From the NCBI GenBank assembly GCA_030068145.1, contig JAPJBO010000325.1:124001-188000 (forward strand): 64,000 nt of DNA, in the 5' to 3' direction. The position numbers and the translations under genes are program-made. The DNA is from Diplonema papillatum. Its lineage: Eukaryota > Euglenozoa > Diplonemea > Diplonemida > Diplonemidae. The notes beneath the pieces were generated by a model that saw only the letters and a list, made by a program, of their open reading frames with translations, had not been told where the DNA came from and made no database searches. Below are positions 2,566 to 57,798 of the stretch, one piece after another (position 1 is the stretch's first letter; each line of letters starts with the position of its first letter).

Positions 2566-3640
2566 TGGGCAATTTTCACGAGCAGCCCTCCAGCAGCCCT
2601 CGCTCCCCTGTTTGACCCAGGCACACCGCGCCAAAGGAGCCCCTTCCCGAGCTCTCGGACCACGCCCCAGCCGCCGCACAGCGTGCCTTCCATGAAGAGC
2701 GGGTCATGGAGATCGCCAGCTGGTTCAAGCTACCGAACCACAAAAAAGGGCCTTATTGGGCACAAACTTGGCCAGCCATAGTTAAAGTGCAAATGTGTCT
2801 ACACATCCTTCTACCCGAGTCCCAGCCTCAATGGTCAGCGGAGACCCTAACTAAGGGCGGTGCTGATCACGAGCTGACGGCTACCAGCATTGGAATCATT
2901 GGTAATGAGGCCAATCTGACAGAAACACGGAACGGGCTGTCCCTTATTGTAAAGTTCTTTCGTTTTTAGTACATTTTCTTTTTTTTTTTGGCTGTTCGCT
3001 TCCGAACGACCGTTTTTGTCCTTATTTTCTTCTTCTTTTTGTTCTTTCTGTGACCGGCGGGACCCCCCCCCCCCCTCTTTTCTTTCGTTCATTCGATACG
3101 GCTTCTTCCAATTCTTGTTCTTGTTTCGTCTTTTGGTTTTTCTTTGACCCTTCCCCGGCCTGTGGGGTTCGGCCTGTATGAGTGGATATCTCCGCGCCAG
3201 CTATCGCAGGTGGGTAGACCCCACCTGGATCGGCGCCCTACGAGCAGCGGAAACCCGACGCTGACGAGAACGAATTCGCCAAGGACTTTGTTGCGGACGG
3301 CCACGAAGGGTTTAACGTTTCTTTTCTCTTTTCATCTTTTATTTCTTCTTCCTTTTCGTTTTTTCTTGCTTTTTTTGGGCACTTCTCGCCGGAGAAACTC
3401 CTCCAAGGAAAAAAGAAAAGAAACAGAACGCCCATCCCCACCAAGTCCAACTTGACGTTGCTGATGTGTTTTCTTTTGGCCCTGTTAACGTCAGGATGTC
3501 CGTTTGACCCTCTGTCCGGGTTTGTTTTCTTCTGTGTTGCGTTCGTGATCGCCAGCGCGAAACGGTTGTCTTATCAGCGTGGGTCTTACCAGCGTAGTCG
3601 TGCATGCCGCGGCTGGTGCACCTTTATTGCCCCATTGACC
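2566..3640. other. Non-coding, homopolymer-rich
   Basis: This holds long T-rich and purine-rich tracts (around 2975-3130 and 3310-3430), a C-run near 3061-3076, and a short dispersed motif U near 2810-2850 ('cccagcctcaatggtca') shared with 29035-29080 and 55030-55080. No gene is supported. Confidence 0.5.
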
Positions 3641-3644
3641 GGTG

Positions 3645-3935
3645 ATCCGCTTCGGCACCGACTGCTTTGGAAGAGGGATTCTGCTCTCCTTCGTGCTGAC
3701 TGCCCAACAGGAGACATGCTTTGCACTCTCTGAATACTCACTGACTGTGATCCGCTTCGGCACCGACTGCTTTGGAAGAGGGACTGTGCTCTGCTTCGTG
3801 CTGACTGCCCTACAAGAGACATGCTTTGCACTCTCTGAATACCCACTGACTGTGATCCGCTTCGGCGCCGGCTGCTTTTGGACGAGGGACTGAGCTCTGC
3901 TTCGTGCTGACCGCCCTACGAGCGACATGCTTAGC
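3645..3935. repeat. Tandem repeat, about 100-bp unit, 2.7 copies
   Basis: The unit starting 'tgatccgcttcggcaccgac' recurs at about 3651, 3748 and 3854. Each is followed by 'gacatgcttt' and 'gcactctctgaata', with decay in the last copy. Confidence 0.85.
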
Positions 3936-4708
3936 ACGGACAATCCCACGGTACCGGGTGAATGGCGCGATCGAGCCCACGGCCCGTGCCCCCTGTCTGC
4001 TTGCGGTCGCGTCGGCCCCGCCCGCAACCGCAGCCGCCATGGCGGCAGCATTCGCCCATGCCCACACGCCAGCTCTTCCCATCGAGTTAGCAATCTAGCT
4101 AAGGAGTACAATCGAGGATCCCGTACCGTCAGCAGTCCGGCCAAGAAACGTAGCCGAGGTCAGGCCTTACATTCAGCATGCTGAACGTACTGGTTTAAGC
4201 CCGTAATTTCTTTTAGTTTCTTTTTGTACATGCTGAATCAGTACGTTATCAGCACTTACTATCTTTTCTGCAGATTCCTCTGGGGAATCAACCGCAGTAC
4301 CGGGGATTCCGGTCGGCAGATCCTGCTGTTGCTTACCACCGCGACACTGGAGGGTTGAGGCCGGAGAGGAGGAAGAGGCAAAGACATGCAGCACTGGCAG
4401 GTGAGCCCCCTATGCTCTATTTCTTTTTTTGCCTGACCCTACGTACTGATTTTCAGTTGGTATTTAGCTCCAAGACAAAAGAGCTGCGTAAGCCCTGGCC
4501 GAGGTTCGTTTGGTAGAACAGCGCCTTGACATGAGTATATTTACGCCGGATCGGCGCCTACGGCTCCGAAGGTAACCGCACTGAGGGAATAATTCAACCA
4601 GTCAAAATGAGAGCTTGTCACTCGCACAACCACGGCTGATACAAATTAATGAAATGATGCTGATTATGGGAAGAGAGAGTTGTTTTCGTTGAACGCCCTG
4701 CCTGGTCG
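3936..4708. other. Non-coding region
   Basis: I see no supported gene. A piece near 4660-4710 resembles, in reverse, a repeat found at 27128, 43172 and 44328 (repeat R). Confidence 0.4.
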
Positions 4709-4938
4709 TTTTGTTTTTGTATAAGCACCTGCTTTGTAGGAAATGCTTGAGGAGACTGTCAGTTGCGATCGATCAAAGGAGGTAACTGTGCTGTAGCCCA
4801 CACGAAACACAGAGGTAAATCTGGGTTTATTGGCGGGCGTAAGCGTTCAACAAAAAAGACCCACCTTGTAGTTTTATTGTTTTCTCCCCCTCTAGCCTCC
4901 TTCGAAGCAAGCACAAGGCAGCCCCTCGAGTATTTTTA
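4709..4938 (-). mobile_element. SINE-like retroposon A, near-complete copy
   Basis: It begins with a T-rich run on + and 'ataagcacctgctttgtagg', passes 'gtgctgtagcccacacgaa' and 'ggcgggcgtaagcgttcaac', and ends 'gcccctcgagtattttt'. The T-run reads as a poly(A) tail on the minus strand, so the sense strand is minus. About 16 other copies lie in the window. This one ends 133 bp before the start of the 5071-7983 gene. Confidence 0.75.
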
Positions 4939-5070
4939 CGAAAACCCCCAAACAGGACCCCCGGGCTGTCCTACCCCTCCGATGCCCCCTCCCCGTGAGA
5001 TCACCCCGAGTTGTTCGTAGGCGCCCGCGCCGCGCACCATGCGCTGACGGCGCCGAAGCGCCGGCGAGAA

Positions 5071-7983
5071 ATGTCGTGCGTGCCGCCCGACGCGGGCGAG
5101 AAGCTGCGGTACGTGCTCCACTGCGTCGACCCCGCCCTGCTGGGGCGGGTCGACGTCGGCGAGGTGGTCCGGGCGCACGGGGGTGCTGCGGAGCAGCTGT
5201 TCGCGGCCATCTCCCACCGGTACCGGACGGCGCTGCCGACCCTGTACGACGCGGTGCACGCGTTCTACGGCAGGCACCGGCCCCGAAACCCGCAGAAGGT
5301 CGCGTCCGTCCTCGCCGCGTGGAAGGGCGCTGAGCACCAGCTTCCCGACGCCCTGGCCCTCAAGTACCACACGGACTTTTTCTCCGCGCACTACCCGGGC
5401 CTCGCGGAGGCGTTGGCCGAAGAGCACCGCCACAACAACAACCCCGACGACTACGACAACCCCAACAACCGCAATAATAACCACAGCAACAACTACAGTA
5501 ACCACAACTACAACAATCCCAATAACCACAACAACCACCCCGACGACTACGACAACTCCAACAACCACAATATCCACGACGACAACCCCGACAATTACAA
5601 CGACCACGGCTACAACGGCAACCCCGGGGCCTACGTCTACCCCTCGACGCCGCCGCGGCCCGTGCACGGGCTCGAGCCGCTGGAGGGGCGGATGCCGCCG
5701 CACGTGAAGGCCGCGGTGGTCCGCTTCTTCGAGCGCGGCGCGCCGGAGAAACTGCCCGAGGTCCTCGCCCTCATCACCGAGCACGACGGCCGCGGCGGCG
5801 ACCGCCTGCTGACGGCGCTGCGCGCGTGCTGGGACGGGTCGGCGGGCGGCGGCGCCGCGGCGGCCGCCGGCGGCTGGTACGACGAGGCCGCCGGGCGCGC
5901 CTTGCTCGCCTCCGTCGAGCACTTCGGAAGGCCGCCGTCCCCCCGCAGCCGCCACGGGAACCACCCCCCCTGGTCACCCGGCGGAGACCCGCCCCGAGGG
6001 CACGCTTGCGTGCCGCCCATCTGGCAGCGCCGGCTGCCGCCGCCGCACGTCGTCTCGGACCGGGACACGGGGCTTCCGCCCCCAGAGGCCGCGGAGGCTG
6101 CACAGCTGCGCGCCGCGCTCCGCGGCGTCCAGCGCGCGCTCGACGGGCTGCCGCCGCACGTCCTCGCACCGGCCAGCTTCCCCGGAGGCGGCGGCGGCGG
6201 GGACGGCCAGTTCCCGGCGTTCCTCCTTTCCCCCACGCCGCCCCCTCTGCCCGGCGAGCTTTCCGCGGGGTTTCCCGACCCGCCGCCGCCGCCGGCGCTG
6301 CCTTGGGAGGGGGAGGGTGTGCCGGCGGGCGGGCTGGTGCGGGTGTCCGCGCCCGTGTACGCCGGGCAAGGCTTCGGGCGGCAAGCGACGCCACCGGAAC
6401 TGGGCCTGAGGAAAAGTGTCCGGCCCCTGGGTCCGGGAGGGAGGGACCCATTCCGAGAAGCAGGCGTCGGGCCGCCGGATTCCCCGGGTCCGTCGTCGTC
6501 CACGAAGAGCCACCCGTTCACGGTGCGGTCGCACCCGTTTTCGTCGCGGTCGAAGCAGCCCCCGGCGAGCGCCGTGGATGACCACCCGCTGCCGACGTCC
6601 CGCCGCGCCACGGACGCGGACCCGTCCGCCGCCGGAACTGGGGGGAGGCCCGCGGACTCCGCTGAGCTCAGCTCCCGCCCCCCGGCGCTGACCTCCCGCG
6701 CGCTGCGGCAGCTGCTCGGACCGAAAGCGGAGATGGACGACCAGCAGGGCCGCCGCTGCGGGGAAGGGTCGACCTTCCCCGGGGCTGCGCTGCGGGTGGG
6801 CGCTTCGCGCGGGAGTTCGTCGAAGCCGGCGTCGGACGCGGCGTCGAAGCCCGAAGCGTACCGGTCCGAAGCTTTCGGCGGCGGTGGCACCAGCGAGGCC
6901 CGGCGGCCGCCGCCGGAAGCCGCCGCTTCGCGGGCCTCCAAACCCGAAACCCGGCAGCTCCATTCCGAAGGCAGCAACGACGGCAGCGGCGTGGAGGCGG
7001 CGGAGACCCAGGGAACGCTACGGGGCTCCTCCAAACCGGAAGCCCGCTTTTCGCTTGGCCGGCAGCCCCGTTCCAAAGCACCTCCCAGCGGCAGCAGCGA
7101 CGGCGCAGAAGCAGCGGAGGCCCAGAGAACGCTCCCGCGGCGGGGCGGGGACTCCTCCAAACCCGAAGCCCGCTCTTCGCTCGATCGGCAGCCTCGTTCC
7201 AAAGCACCTCCCAGCGGCAGCAGCAGCGGCGCAGAAGCAGCGGAGGCCCAGAGAACGCTCCCGCGGCGGGGCGGGGACTCCTCCAAACCCGAAGCCCGCT
7301 CTTCGCTCGACCGGCAGCCCGGTTCCAAAGCACCTCCCAGCAGCAGCAGCGACGGCGCAGAAGCAGCGGAGGCCCAGAGAACGCTCCCGCGGCGGCGCGG
7401 GCGAAGCGAGCCGCCACGCGCGGACGCCTCGTCGGAACCCGCTGCTTCGCAGCTCCCGCTGCACTGCGACCCTCCGGCCGGCGACGAAGGGCGCCGCGAG
7501 ATCCCGTCGCCGCCGCCCAGCCGCAGCGGCGCGGCGTCCTCCAAGCCCGAGACTCGCCCCTCGCCCGAATCGCACAGCCCCCCCGAACCTCCGACCCGCG
7601 GCGGCAGCGGGAACCCGGAAGCCGTCGAAGCCGAGAGGATCCTCGCGCTGCTCCGCGGCCCGTTGCGGCCGGCCACCGAGCCCACGGAGCGCGGCTCCTC
7701 GCCTCCCTGGCGCGACGAGGGGGGTGCGTCGTCGCCGTGGCCGCGTACACACAGCCCCGAAGCCCAGCAGCCGCCGGCCGGCGGCTGCGCGGTTCCTCGG
7801 CACCTGCGCCGCATCAGCCCTGCGCGGCTGCCCGCCCGCGCGCTGGCGAGCACGTCGCCTTCCGTAGCGGCGTTCACGGCGGCAGGCCCGCGGGATCTGT
7901 CGCCCCTCGGGTCGACCGCTTCGCACCCGTTCAAGCGCGCGGCTTCTCGCAAAGCCTCCGAGCCGCCGTCCCAACCCAGGTAA
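5071..7983 (+). CDS. Large low-complexity protein with three N-terminal FY-type repeats
   Basis: This single exon encodes 970 aa. The ATG at 5071 is the first in frame; the open frame reaches back to about 5011 without another ATG. Residues 12-51, 62-99 and 211-254 look like three copies of a ~40-residue unit with the pattern V..FY.R..P....V..VL....G.E..L..AL..KY. From memory such units occur in many unrelated protist proteins, function unknown. Residues ~121-190 are almost wholly Asn, His, Tyr and Asp. The rest is Pro/Ser/Arg/Ala-rich, with ~42-residue repeats at about 653-780. No membrane segment, enzyme motif or signal peptide is visible. The whole gene is very GC-rich except the N/H/Y tract. 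SINE-like copies flank it on both sides. I infer a disordered scaffold-type protein; no function can be assigned. Confidence 0.75.
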   Translation: MSCVPPDAGEKLRYVLHCVDPALLGRVDVGEVVRAHGGAAEQLFAAISHRYRTALPTLYDAVHAFYGRHRPRNPQKVASVLAAWKGAEHQLPDALALKYHTDFFSAHYPGLAEALAEEHRHNNNPDDYDNPNNRNNNHSNNYSNHNYNNPNNHNNHPDDYDNSNNHNIHDDNPDNYNDHGYNGNPGAYVYPSTPPRPVHGLEPLEGRMPPHVKAAVVRFFERGAPEKLPEVLALITEHDGRGGDRLLTALRACWDGSAGGGAAAAAGGWYDEAAGRALLASVEHFGRPPSPRSRHGNHPPWSPGGDPPRGHACVPPIWQRRLPPPHVVSDRDTGLPPPEAAEAAQLRAALRGVQRALDGLPPHVLAPASFPGGGGGGDGQFPAFLLSPTPPPLPGELSAGFPDPPPPPALPWEGEGVPAGGLVRVSAPVYAGQGFGRQATPPELGLRKSVRPLGPGGRDPFREAGVGPPDSPGPSSSTKSHPFTVRSHPFSSRSKQPPASAVDDHPLPTSRRATDADPSAAGTGGRPADSAELSSRPPALTSRALRQLLGPKAEMDDQQGRRCGEGSTFPGAALRVGASRGSSSKPASDAASKPEAYRSEAFGGGGTSEARRPPPEAAASRASKPETRQLHSEGSNDGSGVEAAETQGTLRGSSKPEARFSLGRQPRSKAPPSGSSDGAEAAEAQRTLPRRGGDSSKPEARSSLDRQPRSKAPPSGSSSGAEAAEAQRTLPRRGGDSSKPEARSSLDRQPGSKAPPSSSSDGAEAAEAQRTLPRRRGRSEPPRADASSEPAASQLPLHCDPPAGDEGRREIPSPPPSRSGAASSKPETRPSPESHSPPEPPTRGGSGNPEAVEAERILALLRGPLRPATEPTERGSSPPWRDEGGASSPWPRTHSPEAQQPPAGGCAVPRHLRRISPARLPARALASTSPSVAAFTAAGPRDLSPLGSTASHPFKRAASRKASEPPSQPR
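5431..5640 (+). repeat. In-frame AAC/CAC/TAC tract (Asn-His-Tyr-Asp run)
   Basis: This is a low-GC triplet-like tract inside a very GC-rich gene. It encodes runs such as NNN, NNH and DDYDN. It probably arose by triplet slippage and makes a prion-like, disordered linker between FY repeats 2 and 3. Confidence 0.85.
7020..7410 (+). repeat. Coding tandem repeat, ~126-bp unit, about 3 copies
   Basis: The unit encodes ~42 residues containing SSKPEAR, LDRQPRSKAPP and GAEAAEAQRTLPRR. Three close copies keep the frame, and a degenerate one precedes them near 6940. The spacing is a multiple of three, so unit gain or loss would not shift the frame. Confidence 0.85.
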
Positions 7984-10988: not shown

Positions 10989-13900
10989 GTATTGCATTTC
11001 TGCAGTCTCTCTCGCAACAGTGGCGACGAGCTCCCCTGGACGTTCGTATTTAGTGCTAACAATTCTGCGGGTTGGCCCTACAATGTACGTGATACTGTGA
11101 AGGCAAACAAGACGTAGGCAGCGCGTTTTAGTTAAGTGGTTGATCAGAGTTCCTACCCGAAAATGAAGCAGGGTAAATACGAAAAGCCCGTCTTTATTGT
11201 TGAACCGCGCGCTCTGGAGCGCGGCCCAAACGGGCAGGAGGACCAGTGTGGGCGGCGGGTCGGTGCGGTGCGCTGGTTCAATCCGAGCCGCAGCTGGCGG
11301 CGACCAGCTCGCGTGTGGCTGCGACCAGCTCGCGTGTGGCTGCGACCAGCTCGCGTGTGGCTGCGACCAGCTCGCGTGTGGCTGCGACCAGCTCGCGTGT
11401 GGCTGCGACCAGCTCGCGTGTGGCTGCGACCAGCTCGCGTGTGGCTGCGACCAGCTCGCGTGTGGCTGCGACCAGCTCGCGTGTGGCTGCGACCAGCTCG
11501 CGTGTGGCTGCGACCAGCTCGCGTGTGGCTGCGACCAGCTCGCGTGTGGCTGCGACCAGCTCGCGTGTGGCTGCGACCAGCTCGCGTGTGGCTGCGACCA
11601 GCTCGCGTGTGGCTGCGACCAGCTCGCGTGTGGCTGCGACCAGCTCGCGTGTGGCTGCGACCAGCTCGCGTGTGGCTGCGACCAGCTCGCGTGTGGCTGC
11701 GACCAGCTCGCGTGTGGCTGCGACCAGCTCGCGTGTGGCTGCGACCAGCTCGCGTGTGGCTGCGACCAGCTCGCGTGTGGCTGCGACCAGCTCGCGTGTG
11801 GCTGCGACCAGCTCGCGTGTGGCTGCGACCAGCTCGCGTGTGGCTGCGACCAGCTCGCGTGTGGCTGCGACCAGCAGCTCGCGTGTGGCTGCGACCAGCT
11901 CGCGTGTGGCTGCGACCAGCTCGCGTGTGGCTGCGACCAGCTCGCGTGTGGCTGCGACCAGCTCGCGTGTGGCTGCGACCAGCTCGCGTGTGGCTGCGAG
12001 CAGCTCGCGATGCGCGAACGCAGTTTCGCAAAGGAACCGGCAACTTCGTTTACGAAGTTGGCGAAGCTGTGGTTCTTCGCAAAACACGCCCCGCACACGG
12101 CTGTGTCCTCTGCCTGAGGGCAGGGGAACCGTAGTCGATGCACTGGGTTGTCGGTTTTTGGACTGTTTCTCGCTCAGAGTCGCTGGTCTACGTTGCAGAT
12201 CAGCACCGATGAAGAGATCTGCGGAAAATAGACCCGGGGACCAAAGGAGCGGGTGCGGAGGACGGGTGCGGCCCACACTGGAAGGACGAAATCGAGCGCC
12301 GGAGCTTTGCTGGTCTTAAAACGGACAATCCAATAGACACGCGCCCAGGCTGCTGCAAATCGTGCCCACTCTGCCCGGCGCCCTTCCTTGGTCGGGCCAA
12401 ACGCGCTACCCGCTTCCCGCACTAGGTAGTACGTGTGCAGTTATTCACCGTCTTCTTTTATACGCACAGGCCGGTACCAGCAGCTCTCCGTGTCCGATGA
12501 TCAACATCTCTCTCAAGGTCTTTGTTCCCATGGCGTGGCACCTTTTGCGGAACAAGGGCATGAAGGTATGTGCAACAAAAGCAAACAGATACAAAAACGA
12601 AGGCAGGGATTCGCTTCGAACTCCCGCAGCACTCAGCTGGAACGCGTTTTCCTGCATTCGCAACTTCTTCCGTTGATTTCAGTTTTCAGTTTGTGTGTAA
12701 CAGATGCAATGCTGCAAAAACAAAAAACCGCATGGATTGTCACGAACCTGGCTCGCCAAAATAAGCAAATAAAGTGTATAGTAAAGAAGCCATGCATGCC
12801 CTATCCCCAACCCCGTATACGCATTTGCTTCACCCGGAGACATCAAAAGTCTCCTGTCTAAAGTCCGAAATTCTCAAGCGAACTTTAACTCTAAAAAAGG
12901 GAACAACGCGGGACAGGTCGAAATTTACGAAGGATCCGGGAAGGACTGGAAGTGCGTGATGAGCGCTTGACCCGGAGACATCAAAATGTCTCCTGTCTAA
13001 AGTCCGAAATTCTCAAGCGAACTTTAACTCTAAAAAAGGAAACAACGCGGGACAGGTCGAAATTTACGAAGGATCCGGGAAGGACTGGAAGTGCGTGATG
13101 AGTGCGTCGCCGGGGCGGCTCGAGATGTTCGAAGCCCGGTTCGGGTCGATCGGCAGCAACCAGGACAGCGGCTGCGTGACGGCGGTGCACTGGAAGATCG
13201 ACAGCACCGGCGGCGTCGAGTTCGGCTGCGCGTATGTCAACGCGACCCTGCGAGTCCTCGGCGTGGCGGAGTTCGCGGAGGCCACGTTCAGCGGCAGCAA
13301 CCTCGAGTCCTTTTTGATGCAGATCGGCGCCCGCGAGGCGATCGTCCCGCCGACGACGGCGAAGTCGGACCCCATGGAGACCCGCATTTTCGACTGCATC
13401 CGAAACGCCGGCGTGTCGTTGGAACAGGCGAGCCCCAAGAGCTTCAACCCGGCAGAGCTGCCGGACAAGCTCAAGTTCTTGCTTCGAGACGAACACCCGG
13501 TGCATGAAATTTTGCAGCTGCCGCTGGCTCCTGGAGCGCTGGCAGCGGCGATATCTTACTTGGACCTCACCGCCGAGACGTGCAACGAAGAGCAGTTTAC
13601 GCTGCGGAAAGAGGATCTGTCGAAGTACATGAAGCTCGACCTGGCGGCGGTGCGGGCGATGAACATCTTCGACGACGAAAACGAGAACATCAACCGCACA
13701 AAGGGGTGCGTGTACTCTTTCCTCGACAACTGCCACACGGCTATGGGCAAGCGGCTTCTCAAGGTCTGGCTCACGCAGCCTCTGCTCGACGTCGACGAGA
13801 TCACGCGGAGGCAGGACATCACCTCCGTCTTCGTTGACGACAAAATGCTCACCAGCGCTCTCAAAATGACCATCCTCAGTAAGGTATGATTTCGCCCTCA

Positions 13901-16900
13901 TCTTGCATAATTTATTCTACGAGGGTCGAAAAAATATTACCTACCCCCATTTCTTTTTTTAAAGAAATTTTCTCCTTTCGCAAGTTTTGGCAGCCGCTGC
14001 TTGCTAATCCTATAATATACAGTGCATTCTAATCCTATAATGTGGTTCATGTACTTAAAAGAACTCAATGCTTAACAAAACTTGACGTGGGCGGCTTTAG
14101 ATTTACATCTGAATGACACCTCAACACAATACAAGTTGTCGACAACTAACAAGCAAAAGAATAAAACAAAACTACGCAATTCTTCCCCTTGATGTGCGCC
14201 TCAGGGAAAGCCTGCTTCACGGGAGCCAAGCATCACGTGTTCGGCGGTACTGCAGAGCCACGGGCCTAGTCAAGTGGCTACCGATTTCCCAAACTAAAAC
14301 TTAAAGCACCAAGGCGTGGCGCGCCTTGGGGCTTGGCTGGCGCTGAACGCAAGCTCGTCGAGACGCTCAGCCACAGGGCACAGCGGACGGGGTTGTAGCA
14401 CTGGGCTGCCTCCGACTCAAGCTTTGCAAATGCTGTGGTTGACCGTCACGTTCCTGGACCCGGTGCGGCCTTTTTTCTTTTCCTTTCGTTCCGCCTTGAT
14501 GTGCGCCTCGTGCTGCGATTACCTCCAGCGCCGCTGCGTAAAATGGTAAGTAGAAACGAACCAACTTTCAATGATCTTCGTGTGTTCGCCACATTTCCAT
14601 CGAGCCCTACAGACAAAAAGAAACGAGAAAGTATGAGAAAGAGAGAAGAAGAAGAAGAAAAAGAAAAAGGAAAAAGAAAAAGAAAAAGGCCGCCCTCACT
14701 GAGGACGGATGTCATCAGCAAGGACGTAGCAATTGTCGCAGAGGTGGGTGAAGTTAGGGTCCGTCCTCTTTGATATGGGTACTTCCAAGCACTCCCGGAA
14801 GGAGATGCGTCCACAAAGGATGCATTGTCGGCTTCTCTGATCTCGATGCGTTGACAGCGCACTCTTGCAGACTTGGCAGTGCTGGGCACAGTCCCGGTGG
14901 TGACTTGTGAGAAAGAGAGAGAAAAGGAAAATAAATAGCCGAAGGGCGCCCATCATCTTGGACCCAAGCAAAGCTCTGGACGGGGGAGACCCTGCCTGAA
15001 GGAATCGACCACCCCCGGGTGGGCTAGTTGTCATTGTCAACAGGAAAGAAAAAGAAAAACGATCCGACAGATCCCCGACCTCGACAAGATCCTGAAGCGC
15101 CTGCAGAGGGAGCGTTCGTCGCTTGCGGACTGCTTGAAAGTCGGGAACTTCATCGCGCTGGTGCCGAAGGCGATTACGCTCCTCGAAGCCTACGCCGGCG
15201 ACCACAAGAAGGAGCGGGTGGACGGCTACCTCGAGCAGCTCACCGCCGTCGCGTCCATCTTCGAGCCCCTCGAACTCCTCATCGCCGAGTCTCTCGAGGT
15301 GAGCGAGAACGACCGGGAGGTGCTGATCAAGGCGTCGTTCGACCCTTCGCTGGAAGAGATCCAGGCAGAGCGCAACGACGTGCGCACGCAGATGAACCAC
15401 GAGTTCAAGCACGTGCTGACCCTCGTCGGCCACACCGACAAGGAGATCAAGCTCGAGAACAACCCGCAGCTCGGGCACCACTTCAGAGCAACCAAGAAGG
15501 GCATGGGCGCGGTTAACAGCAAGAAAGAGATGATCAAGGTATGTCCTCGCGTAGTCTGGCGGCAGCGTGGAACTCTGACCAGGTGGCCAGCGGACATTGC
15601 TGCCGCGGGAGAGATCAGGCCACCGACTCGTCCGCGTCTGCGAATACTGACACAAGAGAATGAATCTTTCTTTTTTCGCTGAAAGCAGAAAGAACGCCTC
15701 ACTACTCTACCGCCCAGACCGGGTGTGTCCGTGTTGCAACACGCTACGGGGGGCTGTCGACTCTCCCAAAACTGAAGGAAACGACGAGCGATATGTCCCG
15801 TGCGCGCAAGGCTAAATTTAAATTGCGAACAGGGCCTGTGCCTCAGGTCGCCTGCGTTTATGTTACATGCACGTAACGCTCGTGTAACGCTATCTTACAG
15901 TCAAATCTGGCATGTAACGCTCGTGTAACGGTGTTTTACAGTCAGAATTGGCATGTCGCTCGTGTAGACCTAACCCGCGCTTCGTAAAAAAATTGTCGCC
16001 CCAATTTCCCAGGGAGTTTTGACCATTTCACCGTAGAGAGAGAGAGAATCTGGTGACCACCCAAAAAACACCCAAACCCCTGATTGGCCCTTGGCCCAGA
16101 GGCCCAGATCTTATGTTCCACCCTGCCTGCCAGCCCTGCCCAGCCAAACTCCGCACCTTATCCTGGTGTCACCCGAACGAGGATCCCGATAAGCTACAGA
16201 TCCGACGATCCTACCCCACAAGGGAGCAGCGTCGTCTTCCTATCATTGGCTGTGCAAAGCGGCAGCGGAGTTGTGGCGGCCTCTCTCGAAAAGGGTCAGC
16301 ACGGTAGCGAAAGCTATGGGAATACGGGCAAGTGGGGAGGTGCGCTGGGCTGCAAGGCGTCTACCCTCTCGTTTTCCCTGCACTCTAACTCTTCTCTCTC
16401 TCTTTCTCGTTTTGTGAACTTTCTTTCACCACGCGGCAGTTCTCTCAGATATTCGTTGCGCGTCAACTCCCTCAACACAACCCCTTCAGTTGGAATCGCG
16501 CAAAGACGGTTTGAAGTTCACCAGTCCTGGCCTCAACGACATCAATGCGCAATGGAAAGCGCTCACCGAAAAGTATCAGGAACGGCAGGTATGACCCCCC
16601 GAACCCAGTTGACCAGACCCACTTGTTGGTGTTGCATGCTAATCCTTTTCAAGAATGCACGCGTAGCCAGAGAGGGACAATAACTCAGCAATGTTACCGC
16701 GGCGCGTCTCCTTGGAGTTGTCTTTGACTCTTCCCTCTCATTCACTGATCACGTGAGCAACGTTAGACTGCGATGCAAAGCGCGTTTGTCAAATCTAAAA
16801 GGGTGTAATGCCCTTATATCCCACTCAAAACAAATTTGTGCCCTTATATCCCACTTCAAACAAATTTTGTGCCCTTATATCCCAAACTGGGATATAAGGG

Positions 16901-19900
16901 CACAAATTTGTTTTGACAAATTTGAATCGAGGAAAATGCTGGAAAACTTGCCGAGGAGGGGCTTGAACCCCCGACCACTCACCTTGAAACCCAAGGGTGG
17001 TTGGCTCGACCATCCGGATACCTACGGCGAAAAAAAAAAACTTTTCGTCCAGCCGGTGTCGCGAGTTGACGCCCATGCCTGGGCCCTGGCACGGCGAGCC
17101 AAACCCGAAATCGAACCCGAACCCAGAAGTTCGGGTGAGGAGTGATGGTGGCAGAACCGAACCCGAAACCGAACCTAAACCCGAAACTGAACCAGTGCCC
17201 GATAGCCTCGGATAGGAAACCAAACTCGGAACTGAACCCAGATTACAAGACAGATGGCCAGAACCGCGGAGGACGGTGGGCTAACAACCCAAGGTGGCGA
17301 CACAGTCGGACACTGTTGCCGACAGACGGAATCTGCAGCTCACGCAAGAATGGCTGATTCCTTCCTAAAGTCATCAACTGTCGTTGTGCCCACGCCTGCA
17401 CCGCAACTGGTTGCACACACACCGGTTGCACGACGGTGGACACAGCTTCCTTCACTGCAGTAATCTTCGCTTACGGATCATGAGTCTGATGAGATCAGTT
17501 GTCTCGCCTGACTCTCGGCTGTAGCATCTGGCCAGCTACTACAGTTCTGTCCGCGATTAGCCCCGAACGTCAGCGTGGCACGCCGTGACACGCCGCACGG
17601 TCAGACGGTGCAGCCAGGCACCTGGCTCTGATGCGGTTCTCTTGAGTACTTGCATGAGCCGAGTCAATACCCAAGATAGTACGGTTTTTCTTAGAGTTGA
17701 TCAAGATAGTACATGTTTCCTTAGAGTTACCCATTATAGTACATACCTCTTAGAGTTGATCAAGATAGTACATGTTTCCTTAGAGTTGCCCATTATAGTA
17801 CATCCCAAGATAGTACGGTTTTTCTTAGAGTTGATCAAGATAGTACATGTTTCCTTAGAGTTGATCAAGATAGGACATCTTTCCTTAGAGTTGATCAAGA
17901 TAGTACATCTTTCCTTAGAGTTGTCCATGATAGTACGTTTTGCTCTGGTACGGTCTCTTATCCTGTTCTGTTCTGTCCTGTGGGGCGGAACGAAGCCCGG
18001 GCAAAACGAGGCTGGGATAAGGTCCAAAACAGTACGTTTCCCGAGTTTGTGCCCAAAACAGCACCTTTTCCTGTTTGTGCCCAAAAGAGTACTTTGTTCT
18101 AACTTGAGTGCGGGTCCAAGTTTTGAGTCCAAGTTGTGTCCAAGTTTCTGCAGAACCAGGTTCGGTTAGCAAATCCAGACTCTCATCGAATCAAGGACCA
18201 AAATGGCAAGGTTTGCTGCCATGCCGATCAAAAACTGAAACACAACAGGCATCAATTCCCCTCAGCCGGGTTTTCCTCGCGTGCAGCACGGTGCACCGCG
18301 TTTGAGACCCAAGTTTGGGACCCAAGTTTGGGACCCAAGTTTGGGACCCAAGTTTGGGACCCAAGTTTGGGACCCAAGTTTGGGACCCAAGTTTGGGACC
18401 CAAGTTTGGGACCCAAGTTTGGGACCCAAGTTTGGGACCCAAGTTTGGGACCCAAGTTTGGGACCCAAGTTTGGGACCCAAGTTTGGGACCCAAGTTTGG
18501 GACCCAAGTTTGGAACTCAAGTTTTGGGCACAAACTCAGGTCCGAGTCAGGAAACCGTACTCTTTTGGTATTTCACCCAACCAGCAGCCCGTGCCTGGGC
18601 CACGGCTGGGGAAAGGGGGGTCTCTAAAAAAAAACGAAGAAAAAGCAAAAACTACGGTTTCTGTGCATTTTTCTTGCATTTCAGGAGTTTCAAGTGTGTG
18701 TACTATAATGGGCAACTCTAAGGAAACATGTACTATAATGGGCAACTCTAAGGAAACATGTACTATCTTGGGTAACTCTAAGAGGTATGTACTATAATGG
18801 GTAACTCTAAGAAAGTGTGTACTATAATGGGAAATGACCCGCATGAGCCTCCCAAGTTGAGGCACCCGATCGGGGACCGAGTGTGGCCGCGGTGGCCAGC
18901 TTGAAGTTGTGAAACGGTGCAACCAGTCGCTCTGAGGCACCCAGAACGTCTTGAGACGTCTCGGGTGGGGCATTGAAGCCAGCTTTATGCCTACGGACAA
19001 GGAAACACCAAAAACGGATGGAAGGGGGTGGACTGGGTCAAAATTGGTTTTTGGTCAAATTTTAGGGGTCCAAATTTTTGGGGTCGAAAATTTTGGTCGA
19101 GATTTTTGGTCCAAATCTTTGGTCGAAATTTTGGGTCCAATTTTTTGGTCGAAATTTTTGGGTCCAATTTTTGGGGTCGAAATTTTGGGTCCAAATTTTT
19201 TGGTCGAAATTTTTGGTCGAAACTTTGGGTCCAAATTTTTGGTCGAGATTTTTGGTCCAAATTTTTGGTCCAATTTTTTGGCATCGAAATTTTTGGTCGA
19301 ATTTTTTGGGTCCAGATTTTTGGTCATAATCTAGTTGGGCAAAATGTTGGGGCAAATTTTGGTCGAAAATTTTGCCCTCGAATTTTTGGACGTTGTGGCC
19401 GAGACAAAGCACACATGCCACCTGCCGGTTCGGTTCCCTCAAAAGACTTTTTACACGACCAAACAAATTTTGTGCCCTTATATCCCACTTCAAACAAATT
19501 TTGTGCCCTTATATCCCAGATTGGGATATAAGGGCACAAAATTTGTTTGAAGTGGGATATAAGGGCACAAAATTTGTTTGAAGTGGGATATAAGGGCACA
19601 AATTTGTTTGGGGTGGGATATAAGGGAAATTTACCAATCTAAAAGCCGTCTCAACCAACGTGGCATCTGCCTATGCGCGGACATTGAGGGCATTGTACCT
19701 CACTTACGTGCTTGCCAGTACGATCCGAATTTTGTTGTATAAGCACCTGCTTTGGAGGAAATGCTTGAAGAGACTGCCAGTTGCGATAGATCAAAGGAGG
19801 TAAAGGTGCTGTAGCCCACACGAAGCACAGGTAAAGCTGCATTTAGTGGCAGGCGTAAGCGTTCAACAAAAAAGAGACCCACTTTGTAGTTGTATTGTTT

Positions 19901-21554
19901 TCTGGTACTAAGAATTGGTAGTTGGCAGCGTACTACATGAAACTTACCAAAGCAGGTGAGTTCCGCTAGTGCGCACAAACAAAAGAAAGCGCCATACTAA
20001 TTTTTTTGGGAAGCGGGTTTCAAAAGAAATTCCAACAACGCCAGGCGACTCTCGAAAAGATGTTCAAAGACACGGTCGCATCGTATCTCGAGCCGCTTGA
20101 TCAAATTGCCGCTCTGTTCTCCGAACTCGACATATTCGTGAGCTTTGCCGTTGCGAGCACGATGCCGGCAATGCAGCAGTTTGTGCGTCCAAGGTACGCG
20201 TTTCTGCGTGTTCGTTACGTGTGCAAGTGAGTCAGACTATTGCCGCAGACTGCATTCTAACCTCGGATGTTGGTCGGCGGTCAACTCCCACCAGGTTGCG
20301 GCGCCGCATAACTGGGTGAACCGAACTTGTTGATTCTGCAACTTCAGAGGAAACGTAAGAACATTTCAGTTATTGTTGCAGTGTTTCCGTCGTAGCGAAC
20401 AGAAGAGATAGCAGCACAGTTATTGTTGCAATGTTTCCGTCGCAACGAACAGATGAGAAGTCAGCGTCCACACTCTAAAGAGCATTTTCACATCGTCTTC
20501 ACACCGTCTTCACTGCTGTAGAAGCCGCAGTTGCCGGTGGCGATAGTATTCAGCAACAAAACTACGCAATTATTGTTCACATTCCATTCCGGTTTCCCCT
20601 TGTTCAGCACATAATCACTCCAAGCACTTCTGCACTCCCCACAGGGTCCTCCCGATGCCGGTTGACAAGGAGCCGAAGATCTTGAAGATCGTCCAAGGCA
20701 GGCACCCGCTGGTGGAGTACCAGTTGCAGCAGCGCGGCGGCGGCGACTACGTGGCGAACGACCTCGATCTGGGTTCTGAGGGCACCCTCCTCGCGTTGAT
20801 AACGGGACCCAACATGGGCGGAAAGAGTACCTTCATCCGCACGGCGGGCGTCTGCGTGTTGCTGGCGCAGGTGGGCATGTTCGTTCCAGCAGAAGAGATG
20901 GTCCTCACTGTCTGCGACGCTGTCCTCGCTCGGCTGGGCGCGGCGGACTACATGAGTAGGGGGGTCTCTACGTTCATGGCCGAGATGCTCGAAACGAACG
21001 CGATCCTCGCTAACGCGACGTCCAACAGCTTCGTGATCATCGACGAACTCGGCAGAGGCACGTCGACCCACGACGGGTACGGCCTGGCCTGGGGTATCGC
21101 CGAGCACTTGGTCCTGAAGATCAAGTGCGCGACCCTCTTCGCTACGCACTTCCACGAACTGACCGTCATGGAGGAGCAGCTGCCCCACGTCCGCAACTAC
21201 CACGTCGCCGCCGACACGTCGAAGGACGAGCTGCAGATGCTGTACCAAGTCAACGTGGGCCCGTGCTCGAAGTCGTACGGTATCAACGTCGCGCAAATCG
21301 CCCGGTTCCCGCCCGCCGTCATCGCCGCGGCCAAGAGGAAGACGGAGCTGCTGGAGAGCACGTCCAACAAGCGCCGGCGCGTCGACTCCGACGAAAAGCT
21401 CGACGCGTTCCTCGTTTCGTGGCTGAAGGACTACCAGAAGCTCGCCTCCGAAGCCGAACCGGCCCAGGACCAGCTGAAGTCGCTCACCGACCAGTTCGAC
21501 AGCAAAGCCGCTGAGTTCCCGCAGCTCAAAGCGATGGTTGCAACGGCGTCGTGA
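10824..21554 (+). CDS. MSH2: DNA mismatch repair protein MSH2 (7 exons, 904 aa)
   Basis: MutS-homolog ATPase that pairs with MSH6 or MSH3 to recognise mismatches in nuclear DNA. Exons: 10824-10988, 12470-12565, 13056-13883, 15071-15538, 16490-16588, 20045-20193, 20645-21554. All junctions are GT-AG and the joined frame has no gaps against human MSH2 (about 930 aa, from memory). Visible features are the N-terminal mismatch-binding region with FY at residues 31-32, the connector and lever regions, the Walker A motif GPNMGGKST at 656-664, the GVSTFMAEMLET segment, Walker B/D-loop DELGRGTST at 735-743, and FATHFHEL. The start is the first ATG upstream of the conserved N-terminus. The introns are 450-3456 bp and repeat-filled. 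I infer a functional gene, because all catalytic motifs are intact. Confidence 0.93.
11300..12009 (+). repeat. 21-bp minisatellite, ~34 copies, in MSH2 intron 1
   Basis: The unit is gcgaccagctcgcgtgtggc plus t, nearly perfect throughout. One unit near 11868 carries an extra 'cag', and the last unit has a C-to-G change. The unit length is divisible by three and contains no stop codon in any frame on either strand, so all six frames stay open across about 700 bp. None of these frames is a credible gene. Confidence 0.97.
12010..12469. other. Rest of MSH2 intron 1
   Basis: Unique-looking sequence ending in the acceptor 'tatacgcacag' at 12469. No other gene is supported. Confidence 0.5.
12470..12565 (+). 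CDS. MSH2: MSH2 exon 2
   Basis: Encodes 32 residues ending LLRNKGMK, which aligns without gaps to the LLLVRQYR segment just before the conserved VEVY of human MSH2. The acceptor is CACAG and the donor AAG/GTATGT, phase 0. The exon is too short to stand out as an ORF and was found by homology. Confidence 0.78.
12833..12970 (+). pseudogene. Tandem duplicate of MSH2 intron 2 end plus exon 3 start (138 bp)
   Basis: The 138 bp at 12833-12970 are repeated almost exactly at 12971-13108. The copy includes the acceptor (gggacag, exon from 12918) and the first ~16 exon codons, but then reaches TGA after ...VMSA. Splicing to this upstream acceptor would truncate MSH2, so it is a decoy or poison splice site. 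Confidence 0.88.
13056..13883 (+). CDS. MSH2: MSH2 exon 3
   Basis: Encodes residues 88-363: VEIY..., the SPGRLEMFE segment, connector domain and the start of the core (MKLDLAAVRAMNIF). I place the start at the acceptor gggacag/GTC rather than at the ATG at 13098, because the residues between (VEIYEGSGKDWKCV) match the family. Confidence 0.9.
14195..14490 (-). repeat. Dispersed repeat F, inverted copy in MSH2 intron 3
   Basis: Reverse complement of 10500-10730, with the blocks 'cacgggagccaagc', 'cacgggcctag' and 'accgtcacgttcctggacc'. Confidence 0.8.
14690..14905 (-). pseudogene. Repeat G, best-preserved Cys/His-rich copy
   Basis: The minus strand reads HRDCAQHCQVC, then STHRDQRSRQCILCG, then FTHLCDNCYV without a frameshift, giving C-x2-C pairs and His residues spaced as in a zinc-binding fold. 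It sits in MSH2 intron 3, antisense to the host gene. Family unknown. Confidence 0.5.
15071..15538 (+). CDS. MSH2: MSH2 exon 4
   Basis: Encodes residues 364-519, beginning IPDLDKILKRLQ. The join ...TILSK/IPDLDK matches LLRRFPDLNR of human MSH2 residue for residue, which fixes both splice sites. The donor is AAG/GTATGT. Confidence 0.9.
15830..15965. repeat. Short tandem repeat in MSH2 intron 4 (~50-bp unit)
   Basis: 'catgtaacgctcgtgtaacg' followed by 'ttacagtca' occurs about two and a half times. The rest of the intron (15539-16489) holds no supported gene. A piece at 16330-16400 resembles repeat J (ctctaactcttctctctct). Confidence 0.65.
16490..16588 (+). CDS. MSH2: MSH2 exon 5
   Basis: Encodes 33 residues including LESRKDGLKFTSPGL, matching the KNGVKFTNSKL segment of human MSH2. 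The acceptor is CCTTCAG and the donor CAG/GTATGA, phase 0. Confidence 0.88.
16684..16800 (+). pseudogene. Non-LTR reverse transcriptase fragment, 5' half
   Basis: In frame on + it reads RLLGVVFDSSLSFTDHV..., the LGV.LD.....F..H signature just after the catalytic region of LINE-type reverse transcriptases. Its continuation is at 19645. The two halves are separated by a 2.8-kb insertion flanked by aatctaaaa. It is only a fragment, inside MSH2 intron 5. Confidence 0.7.
16801..16925. repeat. Left inverted-repeat cluster of the 2.8-kb element
   Basis: Three direct ~31-bp units (caaa-ttttgtgcccttatatccca) are followed by one inverted unit, making a strong hairpin centred near 16888. Confidence 0.9.
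16949..17029 (-). tRNA. tRNA-like sequence or tRNA pseudogene
   Basis: On the minus strand the 3' part forms a good T arm (ggggg-ttcaagc-cccctc with a proper B box). An A-box-like stretch (tggtcgagccaacca) lies upstream, GCCG/CGGC can close the ends, and TTTT follows 2 nt after the 3' end. The acceptor stem has two mismatches and the anticodon arm does not give a clear 7-nt loop. I therefore consider it a tRNA relic and assign no amino acid. Confidence 0.35.
17030..17640. other. Interior of the 2.8-kb element
   Basis: It includes a short Pro/Asn/Glu-type degenerate repeat around 17100-17220 ('aacccgaaac', 'gaacccgaa'). No gene is supported. Confidence 0.45.
17670..17950 (+). repeat. 30-bp tandem array, forward arm
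   Basis: The unit gatagtacatgtttccttag plus agttgatcaa (30 bp) repeats about nine times, with variants in the last six bases. The same unit recurs inverted at 18695-18840. Confidence 0.9.
18303..18520. repeat. 15-bp minisatellite, ~14 copies
   Basis: The unit gggacccaagtttgg is almost perfect, with degenerate pre-units (gtccaagttttgag) upstream at 18110-18145. Confidence 0.96.
18695..18840 (-). repeat. 30-bp tandem array, inverted arm
   Basis: About five units of 'tactataatgggcaactcta' plus 'aggaaacatg', the reverse complement of the 17670-17950 array. A transcript could fold the two arrays into one long stem. Confidence 0.9.
19030..19380. repeat. Degenerate T/G-rich tandem array
   Basis: Units of about 13-14 bp alternate 'tttttggtcgaaa' and 'ttttgggtccaaa' for roughly 25 copies. 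Confidence 0.9.
19462..19635. repeat. Right inverted-repeat cluster of the 2.8-kb element
   Basis: Two forward units (caaattttgtgcccttatat) are followed by three inverted units. The outermost unit is the TIR partner of 16801-16870. Confidence 0.9.
19645..19729 (+). pseudogene. Non-LTR reverse transcriptase fragment, 3' half
   Basis: It continues the frame of 16684-16800 with ARTLRALYLTYV, a motif (R.LR.LY...) found after the RT core in LINE elements. It ends where a SINE-like copy begins. Confidence 0.65.
19730..19903 (-). mobile_element. SINE-like retroposon A in MSH2 intron 5
   Basis: Contains 'ataagcacctgcttt', 'gtgctgtagcccacacgaa' and 'gcgtaagcgttcaac'. It abuts repeat S (19905-19985), which recurs at 25095-25170 and inverted at 37350-37430. 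Confidence 0.75.
20045..20193 (+). CDS. MSH2: MSH2 exon 6
   Basis: Encodes ATLEKMFKD... through VASYLEP and ...FVRP, matching the GYVEPM...YVRP segment. The acceptor is CGCCAG. The donor is AAG/GTACGC and splits an Arg codon (phase 2). Confidence 0.9.
20340..20465. repeat. Short tandem duplication in MSH2 intron 6
   Basis: 'cagttattgttgca-tgtttccgtcg' occurs twice, about 62 bp apart. Nothing else is seen in the intron (20194-20644). Confidence 0.75.
20645..21554 (+). CDS. MSH2: MSH2 exon 7 (ATPase domain and C-terminus)
   Basis: Begins with the last base of the split Arg codon and carries the whole ATPase domain (Walker A, Walker B, D-loop, ATHFHEL) and a lysine-rich tail with TSNKRRRVD, a likely nuclear localisation signal. 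It ends at TGA. Confidence 0.95.
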
Positions 21555-22680: not shown

Positions 22681-22835
22681 TATGGGTGGATCGCTTGAGC
22701 ATCATCCATTTTCGGGACCGGTGCATTCGGCAGGTGAGTTGCTACACACTCGTTATAGGATGCCGACTTCCATGGCCACCGTCCTGCTGTCAAGATGAAC
22801 CGACACCCTTTGTGGGATCTGGTGCAAATTCGCGG
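22680..22835. repeat. Dispersed repeat H, copy
   Basis: The blocks 'gtgcattcggcaggt', 'cttccatggccaccgtcctg' and 'caccctttgtgggatct' are shared with 35855-36020, 36548-36715 and, inverted, 49150-49295 and 49680-49830. Confidence 0.75.
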
Positions 22836-28044: not shown

Positions 28045-28905
28045 GGTATGAGGTAAGATTGCGAAGAATCAGTAGGGTATGAGGTAAGATTGCGAAGAAT
28101 CAGTAGGGTATGAGGTAAGATTGCGAAGAATCAGTAGGGTATGAGGTAAGATTGCGAAGAATCAGTAGGGTATGAGGTAAGATTGCGAAGAATCAGTAGG
28201 GTATGAGGTAAGATTGCGAAGAATCAGTAGGGTATGAGGTAAGATTGCGAAGAATCAGTAGGGTATGAGGTAAGATTGCGAAGAATCAGTAGGGTAGTAG
28301 GGTATGAGGTAAGATTGCGAAGAATCTGTAGCAAATAGTCTGCACTATCCCGATTGACCGTGGTACACGTGGCGGGATGAGGTAAGATTGCGAAGAATCA
28401 GTAGGGTATGAGGTAAGATTGCGAAGAATCAGTAGGGTATGAGGTAAGATTGCGAAGAATCAGTAGGGTATGAGGTAAGATTGCGAAGAATCAGTAGGGT
28501 ATGAGGTAAGATTGCGAAGAATCAGTAGGGTATGAGGTAAGATTGCGAAGAATCAGTAGGGTATGAGGTAAGATTGCGAAGAATCAGTAGGGTATGAGGT
28601 AAGATTGCGAAGAATCAGTAGGGTATGAGGTAAGATTGCGAAGAATCAGTAGGGTATGAGGTAAGATTGCGAAGAATCAGTAGGGTATGAGGTAAGATTG
28701 CGAAGAATCAGTAGGGTATGAGGTAAGATTGCGAAGAATCAGTAGGGTATGAGGTAAGATTGCGAAGAATCAGTAGGGTATGAGGTAAGATTGCGAAGAA
28801 TCAGTAGGGTATGAGGTAAGATTGCGAAGAATCTGTAGCAAATAGTCTGCACTATCCCGATTGACCGTGGTACACCGTGGCGGGATGAGGTAAGATTGCG
28901 AAGAA
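28045..28905 (+). repeat. 31-bp minisatellite with splice-donor-like units, ~25 copies
   Basis: The unit gtatgaggtaagattgcgaa plus gaatcagtagg is nearly perfect. Every unit contains gag/gtaaga and ag/ggtatgag, both close to donor sites used in this window. The array begins about 70 bp after the donor of the TIM23-like exon. Higher-order spacers (agt-tgca-tatcccgattgac) at about 28008, 28333 and 28849 divide it into blocks of about 9, 15 and 1 units. Confidence 0.96.
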
Positions 28906-51130: not shown

Positions 51131-51280
51131 CCTCTTTTTGTCGAACGCTCACGCCCGCCACCAAACCCAGATTCACCTGTGTGTTTTGTGTGGGCTACAT
51201 CAATATTGACCTCCTTTGATCTTTCGCAACTGGCAGCCTCCTCAAGTATTTCCTACAAAGCAGGTGCTTATACAAAATAA
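51131..51280 (+). mobile_element. SINE-like retroposon A, only well-preserved + copy
   Basis: Reads 'tcgaacgctcacgcccgcca', 'gtgtgggctacat', 'tttcctacaaagcaggtgct', 'tatacaaaataa'. The A-rich end lies on the right here, which fixes the sense strand. It ends 62 bp before the kinesin ATG and could lie within the 5' UTR or promoter. Confidence 0.75.
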
Positions 51281-57582: not shown

Positions 57583-57798
57583 GTTTTTTTTTTTTTTGTA
57601 TAAGCACCTGCTTTGTAGGAAATGCTTGAGGAGACTGCCAGTTGCTATAGACAAAGGAGGTAAATGTGCTGTAGCCCACACGAAACACAGGTAAATCTGG
57701 GTTCTGTGGCGGGTATCTCAAAGGAGGTAAATGTGCTGTAGCCCACACGAAGCACTGGTAAATCTGGATTCAGTGGCGGGCGTAAGCGTTCAACAAAC
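57583..57798 (-). mobile_element. SINE-like retroposon A with internal partial duplication
   Basis: A 15-T run leads into 'gtataagcacctgctttgta'. The block 'aaaggaggtaaatgtgctgt' to 'tgggtt-tgtggcggg' is present twice (57653 and 57719). It lies 50 bp after the kinesin stop. Confidence 0.8.

Follow-up and report, generated by a model that had tools for sequence, protein, structure and literature searches.

A Mutator-like element carrying a second, MULE-like insertion inside a LINE relic in an MSH2 intron of Diplonema papillatum

The stretch analysed here, referred to throughout as the window, comprises 64,000 nucleotides of the genome of Diplonema papillatum (positions 124001-188000 of contig JAPJBO010000325.1) and holds, within an intron of the mismatch-repair gene MSH2, three mobile sequences lying one inside the other: a relic of a long interspersed nuclear element (LINE), a non-autonomous Mutator-like element (MULE) that we call A, and a further element, B, situated in A. 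Comparisons with the 271-Mb genome assembly strongly support a history in which A belongs to a MULE family active now or recently, was most likely mobilised in trans by the product of autonomous copies of about 5 kb, and later received B, and we hold this reading of the sequences with high confidence. A first-pass annotation of the same DNA had already proposed a non-autonomous Mutator-like element within a LINE relic of MSH2; this outline was borne out, including the host gene and the frame-preserving insertion, whereas several details of the element itself had to be revised. The checks it suggested, for further tip pairs with such duplications, for a MULE transposase between them and for LINE similarity of the rejoined flanks, all gave positive results.

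The insertion site in MSH2

The host gene was identified from the exons on both sides of the intron, whose joined translations match residues 544-851 of Msh2 in a single alignment (PDB 8r7c chain A, which we take to be the human protein; 1.1e-80), while residues 122-381 are matched by window positions 13095-13889 (6.2e-32). The features of the nest are collected in Table 1.

Table 1. Coordinates in the window of the MSH2 intron and of the sequences nested in it
Feature	Positions	Strand	Basis or remark
MSH2 intron, GT...AG, containing the entire nest	16589-20044	+	upstream exon ends at 16588, downstream exon starts at 20045
LINE reverse-transcriptase relic, left part; target of A, left duplication copy included	16684-16801	+	alignment to genomic LINEs
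Target-site duplication of A, AATCTAAAAG, 10 bp, left copy	16792-16801	+	copy comparison
Element A, non-autonomous Mutator-like, 2834 bp, GGTGTAAT...AATTTACC	16802-19635	+	tips, copy comparison
Left terminal inverted repeat region of A: ~30-bp units, three forward and one reverse	16802-16916	+	
9-bp duplication of B, GCATGAGCC, left copy	17652-17660	+	
Element B, Mutator-like, 1180 bp, GAGTCAATACCC...GGGAAATGACCC, inside A	17661-18840	+	own ends, own duplication
13-bp minisatellite of B, GTTTGGGACCCAA, 17.3 copies	18300-18524	+	
9-bp duplication of B, GCATGAGCC, right copy	18841-18849	+	
Internal ~13-bp minisatellite of A, TTTTTGGTCGAAA-like	19048-19374	+	similar arrays in most other copies and in autonomous L035
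Right terminal inverted repeat region of A: ~31-bp units, forward and reverse	19460-19635	+	
Target-site duplication of A, AATCTAAAAG, 10 bp, right copy	19636-19645	+	copy comparison
LINE relic, right part	19646-19716	+	alignment to genomic LINEs

When the flanks of A are joined and one copy of the direct repeat is removed, an open frame resembling reverse transcriptase is restored without a shift. This joined frame of 76 amino acids has at least 150 matches in the genome (the best 150 of 832 first-look candidates were scored), two of which are the window's own halves, and in the best group among them residues 1-61 are matched at 79% identity within open frames of up to 1412 amino acids. At the nucleotide level the reconstructed empty site aligns across the join to all six of the LINE loci fetched for comparison, which were those picked as best matches, over 189-192 bp at 79-82% identity, and in two of them (L037, L038) the translated alignments span the join over 62 residues without a gap. 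Long open frames at these loci carry RVT_1 (1.9e-34, L039) and RNase H (1.3e-9, L037; 4.4e-9, L039) domains; the relic aligns to RNase H-bearing LINEs of the same genome, and only 189 bp of it remain here.

Element A, its family and its transposase

The ends of A were set by comparing copies. Its first base is 16802 and not 16801, as the first-pass annotation had it, and the direct repeat reported there as 9 bp is a 10-bp duplication at this site, the family showing both lengths. The inverted repeats recognised at its outer ends are present and longer than the estimate of about 65 bp: the outermost arms match over 83 bp at 93% identity and are made of units of about 30-31 bp. The body had been described as almost wholly tandem arrays; these, when merged, account for 45% of A (1288 bp out of 2834), and the later transposon B, which had been overlooked, contributes 1180 bp.

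Exact copies of the 22-bp left tip of A number 249 in the genome and those of the right tip 235, against none for the reversed control patterns. The 40 tips with the best scores include 39 places besides the window, of which we examined 20 (L009-L028, 10 kb each), together with two loci bearing an intact transposase (L035, L036). Both tips are present in 18 copies, the window included, and 15 of the 18 are flanked by exact duplications, either of 9 bp (L011, L015, L020, L021, L023, L025, L026, L035) or of 10 bp (L009, L016, L017, L019, L022, L024 and the window). Pairwise identity in the 18 complete copies has a median of 100% over the left 150 bp (lowest 92%) and of 98% over the right 110 bp (lowest 84%). 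The left flank is identical in L010 and L016, which are probably one insertion seen twice.

Two longer members carry a gene between the same tips, on the strand opposite to the orientation used for A: L020 (4916 bp, 9-bp duplication) has a frame of 980 amino acids and L035 (5065 bp, 9-bp duplication) one of 1001. Both frames score above the Pfam cut-offs for MULE (1e-12) and Transposase_mut (about 5e-8). The residues D360, D418/D420, C439, H442 and E516, among which we take the D, D and E to include the catalytic ones, are invariant in the three transposases aligned, as are SWIM- and CCHC-like positions, the corresponding Pfam matches being below cut-off. Across the genome at least 13 uninterrupted frames of 1001 amino acids, those of L035 and L036 included, are 100% identical after rounding, besides truncated and diverged ones; this count is a lower bound, since 47 of 3083 candidates were scored. 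Residues 175-224 of the transposase are also matched in five of the nine A copies tested for remnants (L009, L012, L013, L015, L021; E 1.9e-6 to 0.037). A search of NCBIfam returned below-cut-off matches only, the best being IS256, and a search of IMG/VR for a viral relative, made with two peptide patterns only, matched 33 stretches and no relative.

Because tips, duplications and, in the longer copies, a transposase between the same tips are shared, A is best regarded as a Mutator-like element that is non-autonomous and comes from a young family; the 1001-amino-acid transposase most likely acted on it in trans. Several observations weigh against this view. Exact duplications are missing from three of the 18 complete copies, namely L012 (one mismatch in 10), L027 (a 10-bp repeat with a 5-bp shift) and L013 (none), and those of L026 and L035 count for less, as they fall in homopolymeric stretches of T or A. 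The sequences fetched for L010, L014, L018 and L028 (four of the 21 first-round copies) and for L036 show no right end, and both tips were seen for just one (L035) of the 13 intact 1001-amino-acid genes. The remnant search matched nothing in the window copy or in L011; in L016 it yielded a single match, at E 5.5 and in the region of residues 175-224, and in L028 likewise a single one, at E 9.7 and in another region of the protein. As the window copy lacks a clear gene remnant, its link to the family consists in its ends and in stretches common to other copies.

The last 190 amino acids of the transposase constitute what appears from profile comparisons to be an OTU-like domain, with a Pfam score below cut-off: in L035 the OTU model (PF02338) is matched over 120 of 128 profile positions at 14.0 bits (E 0.076; cut-off 23.3). 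P0001, L043 and L044 have no Pfam OTU entry among their listed matches; L044 gives Peptidase_C65 Otubain at E 0.25. Aligned by hhalign to an OTU profile built from nine of the genome's own above-cut-off Pfam OTU hits, the domain obtained a probability of 95.6% and, in this one-profile comparison, an E of 1.3e-8 (20 shuffles, at most 0.69%), the alignment being good at the Cys end and poor at the His end. Among 20 PDB chains matched by profile, each weakly (E 0.036-0.95), 18 are named OTU-type proteases or viral L/RNA-dependent RNA polymerase proteins, the latter presumably representing viral OTU domains. An Asp-Gly-Asn/Asp-Cys and a His-Phe motif, to which we would assign the role of OTU-like protease motifs, are kept in all three transposases.

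Other observations made on these loci are recorded here in their own right. L025 has both A tips and a transposase gene whose 5' part is inverted, giving two frames on opposite strands. In L010 and L014, within the 9 kb behind the A tips, frames resemble by eye RNase H and a tyrosine recombinase (DIRS-like). Many genomic open frames of 1876-2130 amino acids contain OTU above the Pfam cut-off, with repeated identical scores, and probably belong to other transposon families. Window positions 16950-17028 resemble a minus-strand tRNA by eye, and the same stretch is found again in translated sequences of further A copies; its interpretation as a Pol III promoter was rejected, ARAGORN finding no tRNA in the window and Rfam no tRNA family up to E 5 in 16780-19660. 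The 77 Rfam matches in the latter interval, mostly microRNA families on the repeat arrays, were likewise discarded, all being below gathering scores.

Element B and its relation to A

B has its own ends and its own duplication, and its absence from other copies of A reveals it as an addition. Positions 860-2039 of A, which correspond to B, have no plus-strand counterpart of at least 100 bp in the 20 other A-tip loci, nor do these contain the B tips at up to three mismatches; in ten A copies (L012, L015, L016, L019, L021-L024, L026, L027) both flanks of B align, overlapping by 9 bp. The B tip occurs 132 times exactly in the genome (control, 0), and the left 291 bp have at least 40 long matches at 97-100%, the window's included, among the 40 scored of 314 candidates. 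Seven copies of B were examined, those of the window and L029-L034, two of which (L030 and L034) were also viewed in a wider context, as L046 and L047 respectively. Five of them are complete, at 959-1923 bp, and all five have exact 9-bp duplications; in L032 and L033 the right end was not found within 1.3 kb. B would accordingly represent a second family, likewise young and of high copy number and MULE-like by its ends and duplications, that landed in A later. In L047, part of an A copy lies next to B. The same locus shows, on the minus strand at about 1270-1528 and about 3381-3639, an exact 259-bp duplication with the right end of B and the same 9-bp flank each time, which is either a rearrangement or an assembly artefact. 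L046 contains outside its B copy, at 3401-6073 on the minus strand, an open frame of 891 amino acids that by eye resembles a PiggyBac-type transposase.

As to whether A and B are both moved by the A transposase, or by separate transposases each with an autonomous family of its own, we consider separate transposases probable. The tips of A and B differ, and the genome contains other transposase families 34-37% identical to that of A. Among them, two further types (L043, L044; 34%) keep D360, D418, D420, C439, H442 and E516 as well as the SWIM- and CCHC-like positions, and a relative at C496 is 35% identical to the A transposase over residues 72-766. The C496 element has its own ends (GGGCTTTTTATCTAATAGCC on one side), where units of about 30 bp form inverted terminal arrays, as well as TTTTGGTCAAAAT-like arrays in its interior. 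Its 9-bp duplication, ATATTTATA, is A+T-rich and seen in one copy, but placed where the likeness to the C8 copy ends. On the other hand, no transposase was seen in any B copy; the five complete ones are too short for such a gene, the two others were covered over 1.3 kb only, and longer B copies were not sought systematically.

The families of A, B and C496 may also have a design in common that goes beyond ordinary MULEs, namely ends of about 30-bp units combined with an internal minisatellite of about 13 bp with a GGTC/GGGACC core, a generalisation that we offer tentatively and regard as rather doubtful, the likeness of the arrays having been judged by eye. Both the A and the C496-family transposases carry the OTU-like domain. 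Given that the identity between these two is only some 35%, the 13-bp array may have been conserved for a function, for example as a second array for transposase binding; it would also expand and contract and could be a source of satellite DNA.

The assignment of A to MULEs rather than to another superfamily rests on several features taken together. MULEs are defined in PMC6446971 by long terminal inverted repeats (TIRs) and duplications of 8-11 bp, and the A family agrees in both, having in addition the MULE catalytic domain between its ends (present in L020 and L035 but absent from the window copy), the D/D/E residues with C..H, and the SWIM- and CCHC-like motifs; it departs from usual MULEs in its ends of tandem units of about 30 bp and its internal minisatellite of about 13 bp. 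A Foldback-type origin, or one in hAT, P or Ginger, in which the 9-10-bp duplication would merely look MULE-like, might be suggested by two features: the terminal repeats consist of tandem units of about 30 bp, as those of Foldback elements do (compare Tm1, PMC3169594), and a C-terminal OTU-like domain has been described for Ginger1 (PMC2836005). This alternative is largely refuted, and in our judgement very improbable, given that the transposase between the A tips passes the Pfam MULE and Transposase_mut cut-offs, scores with the hAT model at E 0.16-0.17 only, and has no integrase model listed among its Pfam matches. As for a single-element origin, the view taken in the first-pass annotation, in which the inner inverted repeats (17706-17803 and 18728-18825) would belong to the body of A itself, the arrays of the window taken alone do resemble one nested palindrome, but we give it next to no credence in view of the missing B segment and the 9-bp overlap of its flanks in the other A copies, and because B belongs to a family whose members at other loci share its end points and have 9-bp duplications of their own.

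Among described systems, the A family shares composite, internally repetitive TIRs with Phantom and with Tm1, a Mutator/Foldback family of root-knot nematodes with mostly 9-bp duplications and both MITE-like (miniature inverted-repeat transposable element) and transposase-bearing members (PMC3169594). Tm1 differs in its Phantom-like transposase of 496 amino acids and its repeat unit of about 14 bp, and is, by a section heading of the same paper, of low copy number and without evidence of recent transposition (PMC3169594). Table 1 of Dupeyron et al. 2019 places MuDR-6_HM, from Cnidaria, in group 14 with 'Ovarian Tumour Gene' under other motifs (PMC6446971); this likeness to A concerns the combination of OTU with MULE as a table entry only, which gives no TIR. 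As a consequence of this entry, the presence of OTU on a MULE was dropped as a novelty. The Ginger1 transposase has an OTU or Ulp1 protease at its C-terminus but an integrase-type catalytic domain, unlike the MULE domain of A, and the same source mentions Mutator with Ulp1 and Helitrons with OTU (PMC2836005). Minisatellites have precedents in Phantom of aphids and in Rehavkus (PMC6446971). A literature search for Mutator-like elements with TIRs in Acanthamoeba found no paper. Precedents have thus been published for minisatellites, for repetitive termini and for an OTU domain on a MULE; it is their combination, together with the similar 13-bp arrays, that deserves a second look, and the most unusual point is the similar-looking internal array of about 13 bp in three MULE families of one genome.

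Wider setting and proposed history of the nest

Elsewhere in the window, a fragment of eukaryotic large-subunit rRNA lies directly behind MSH2 (22695-22824, minus strand; Rfam RF02543, 134.8 bits), and two large, near-perfect tandem arrays occupy 11295-12009 (21 bp x 34) and 28045-28838 (31 bp x about 25). The motif AAGCAGGTGCTTATAC has nine matches at up to three mismatches against 0.42 expected, a number reached in none of 100 shuffles; four are exact (4719-4734, 19737-19752 and 57598-57613 on the minus strand, 51258-51273 on the plus strand) and five weaker. One site lies shortly upstream of a frame resembling kinesin by eye, and the motif is possibly an element of core promoters or of leaders in this organism.

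The nesting of the sequences fixes the order of events: the LINE relic came first, A entered it, and B followed. The 1001-amino-acid MULE transposase is encoded by autonomous copies some 5 kb long, and A, devoid of the gene, would be recognised through the common ends by the enzyme of an intact relative, which might bind the terminal units of about 30 bp. Cut-and-paste insertion would have brought A into the LINE relic within the MSH2 intron, gap repair at the site giving rise to the 10-bp duplication, and the later insertion of B, from a related-looking family, would have generated the 9-bp duplication inside A. The OTU-like domain might serve to remove ubiquitin during transposition or to stabilise the transposase. 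Judged from the sequence, the insertion is intronic, and we claim no effect on MSH2.

Our analysis resolves a raw stretch of DNA into an ordered history of insertions inside a mismatch-repair gene. The genome of D. papillatum holds a very young MULE family whose intact, nearly identical transposase genes make it a candidate active system, and the 13-bp arrays and the OTU-like domain raise the question of which accessory parts a MULE needs.

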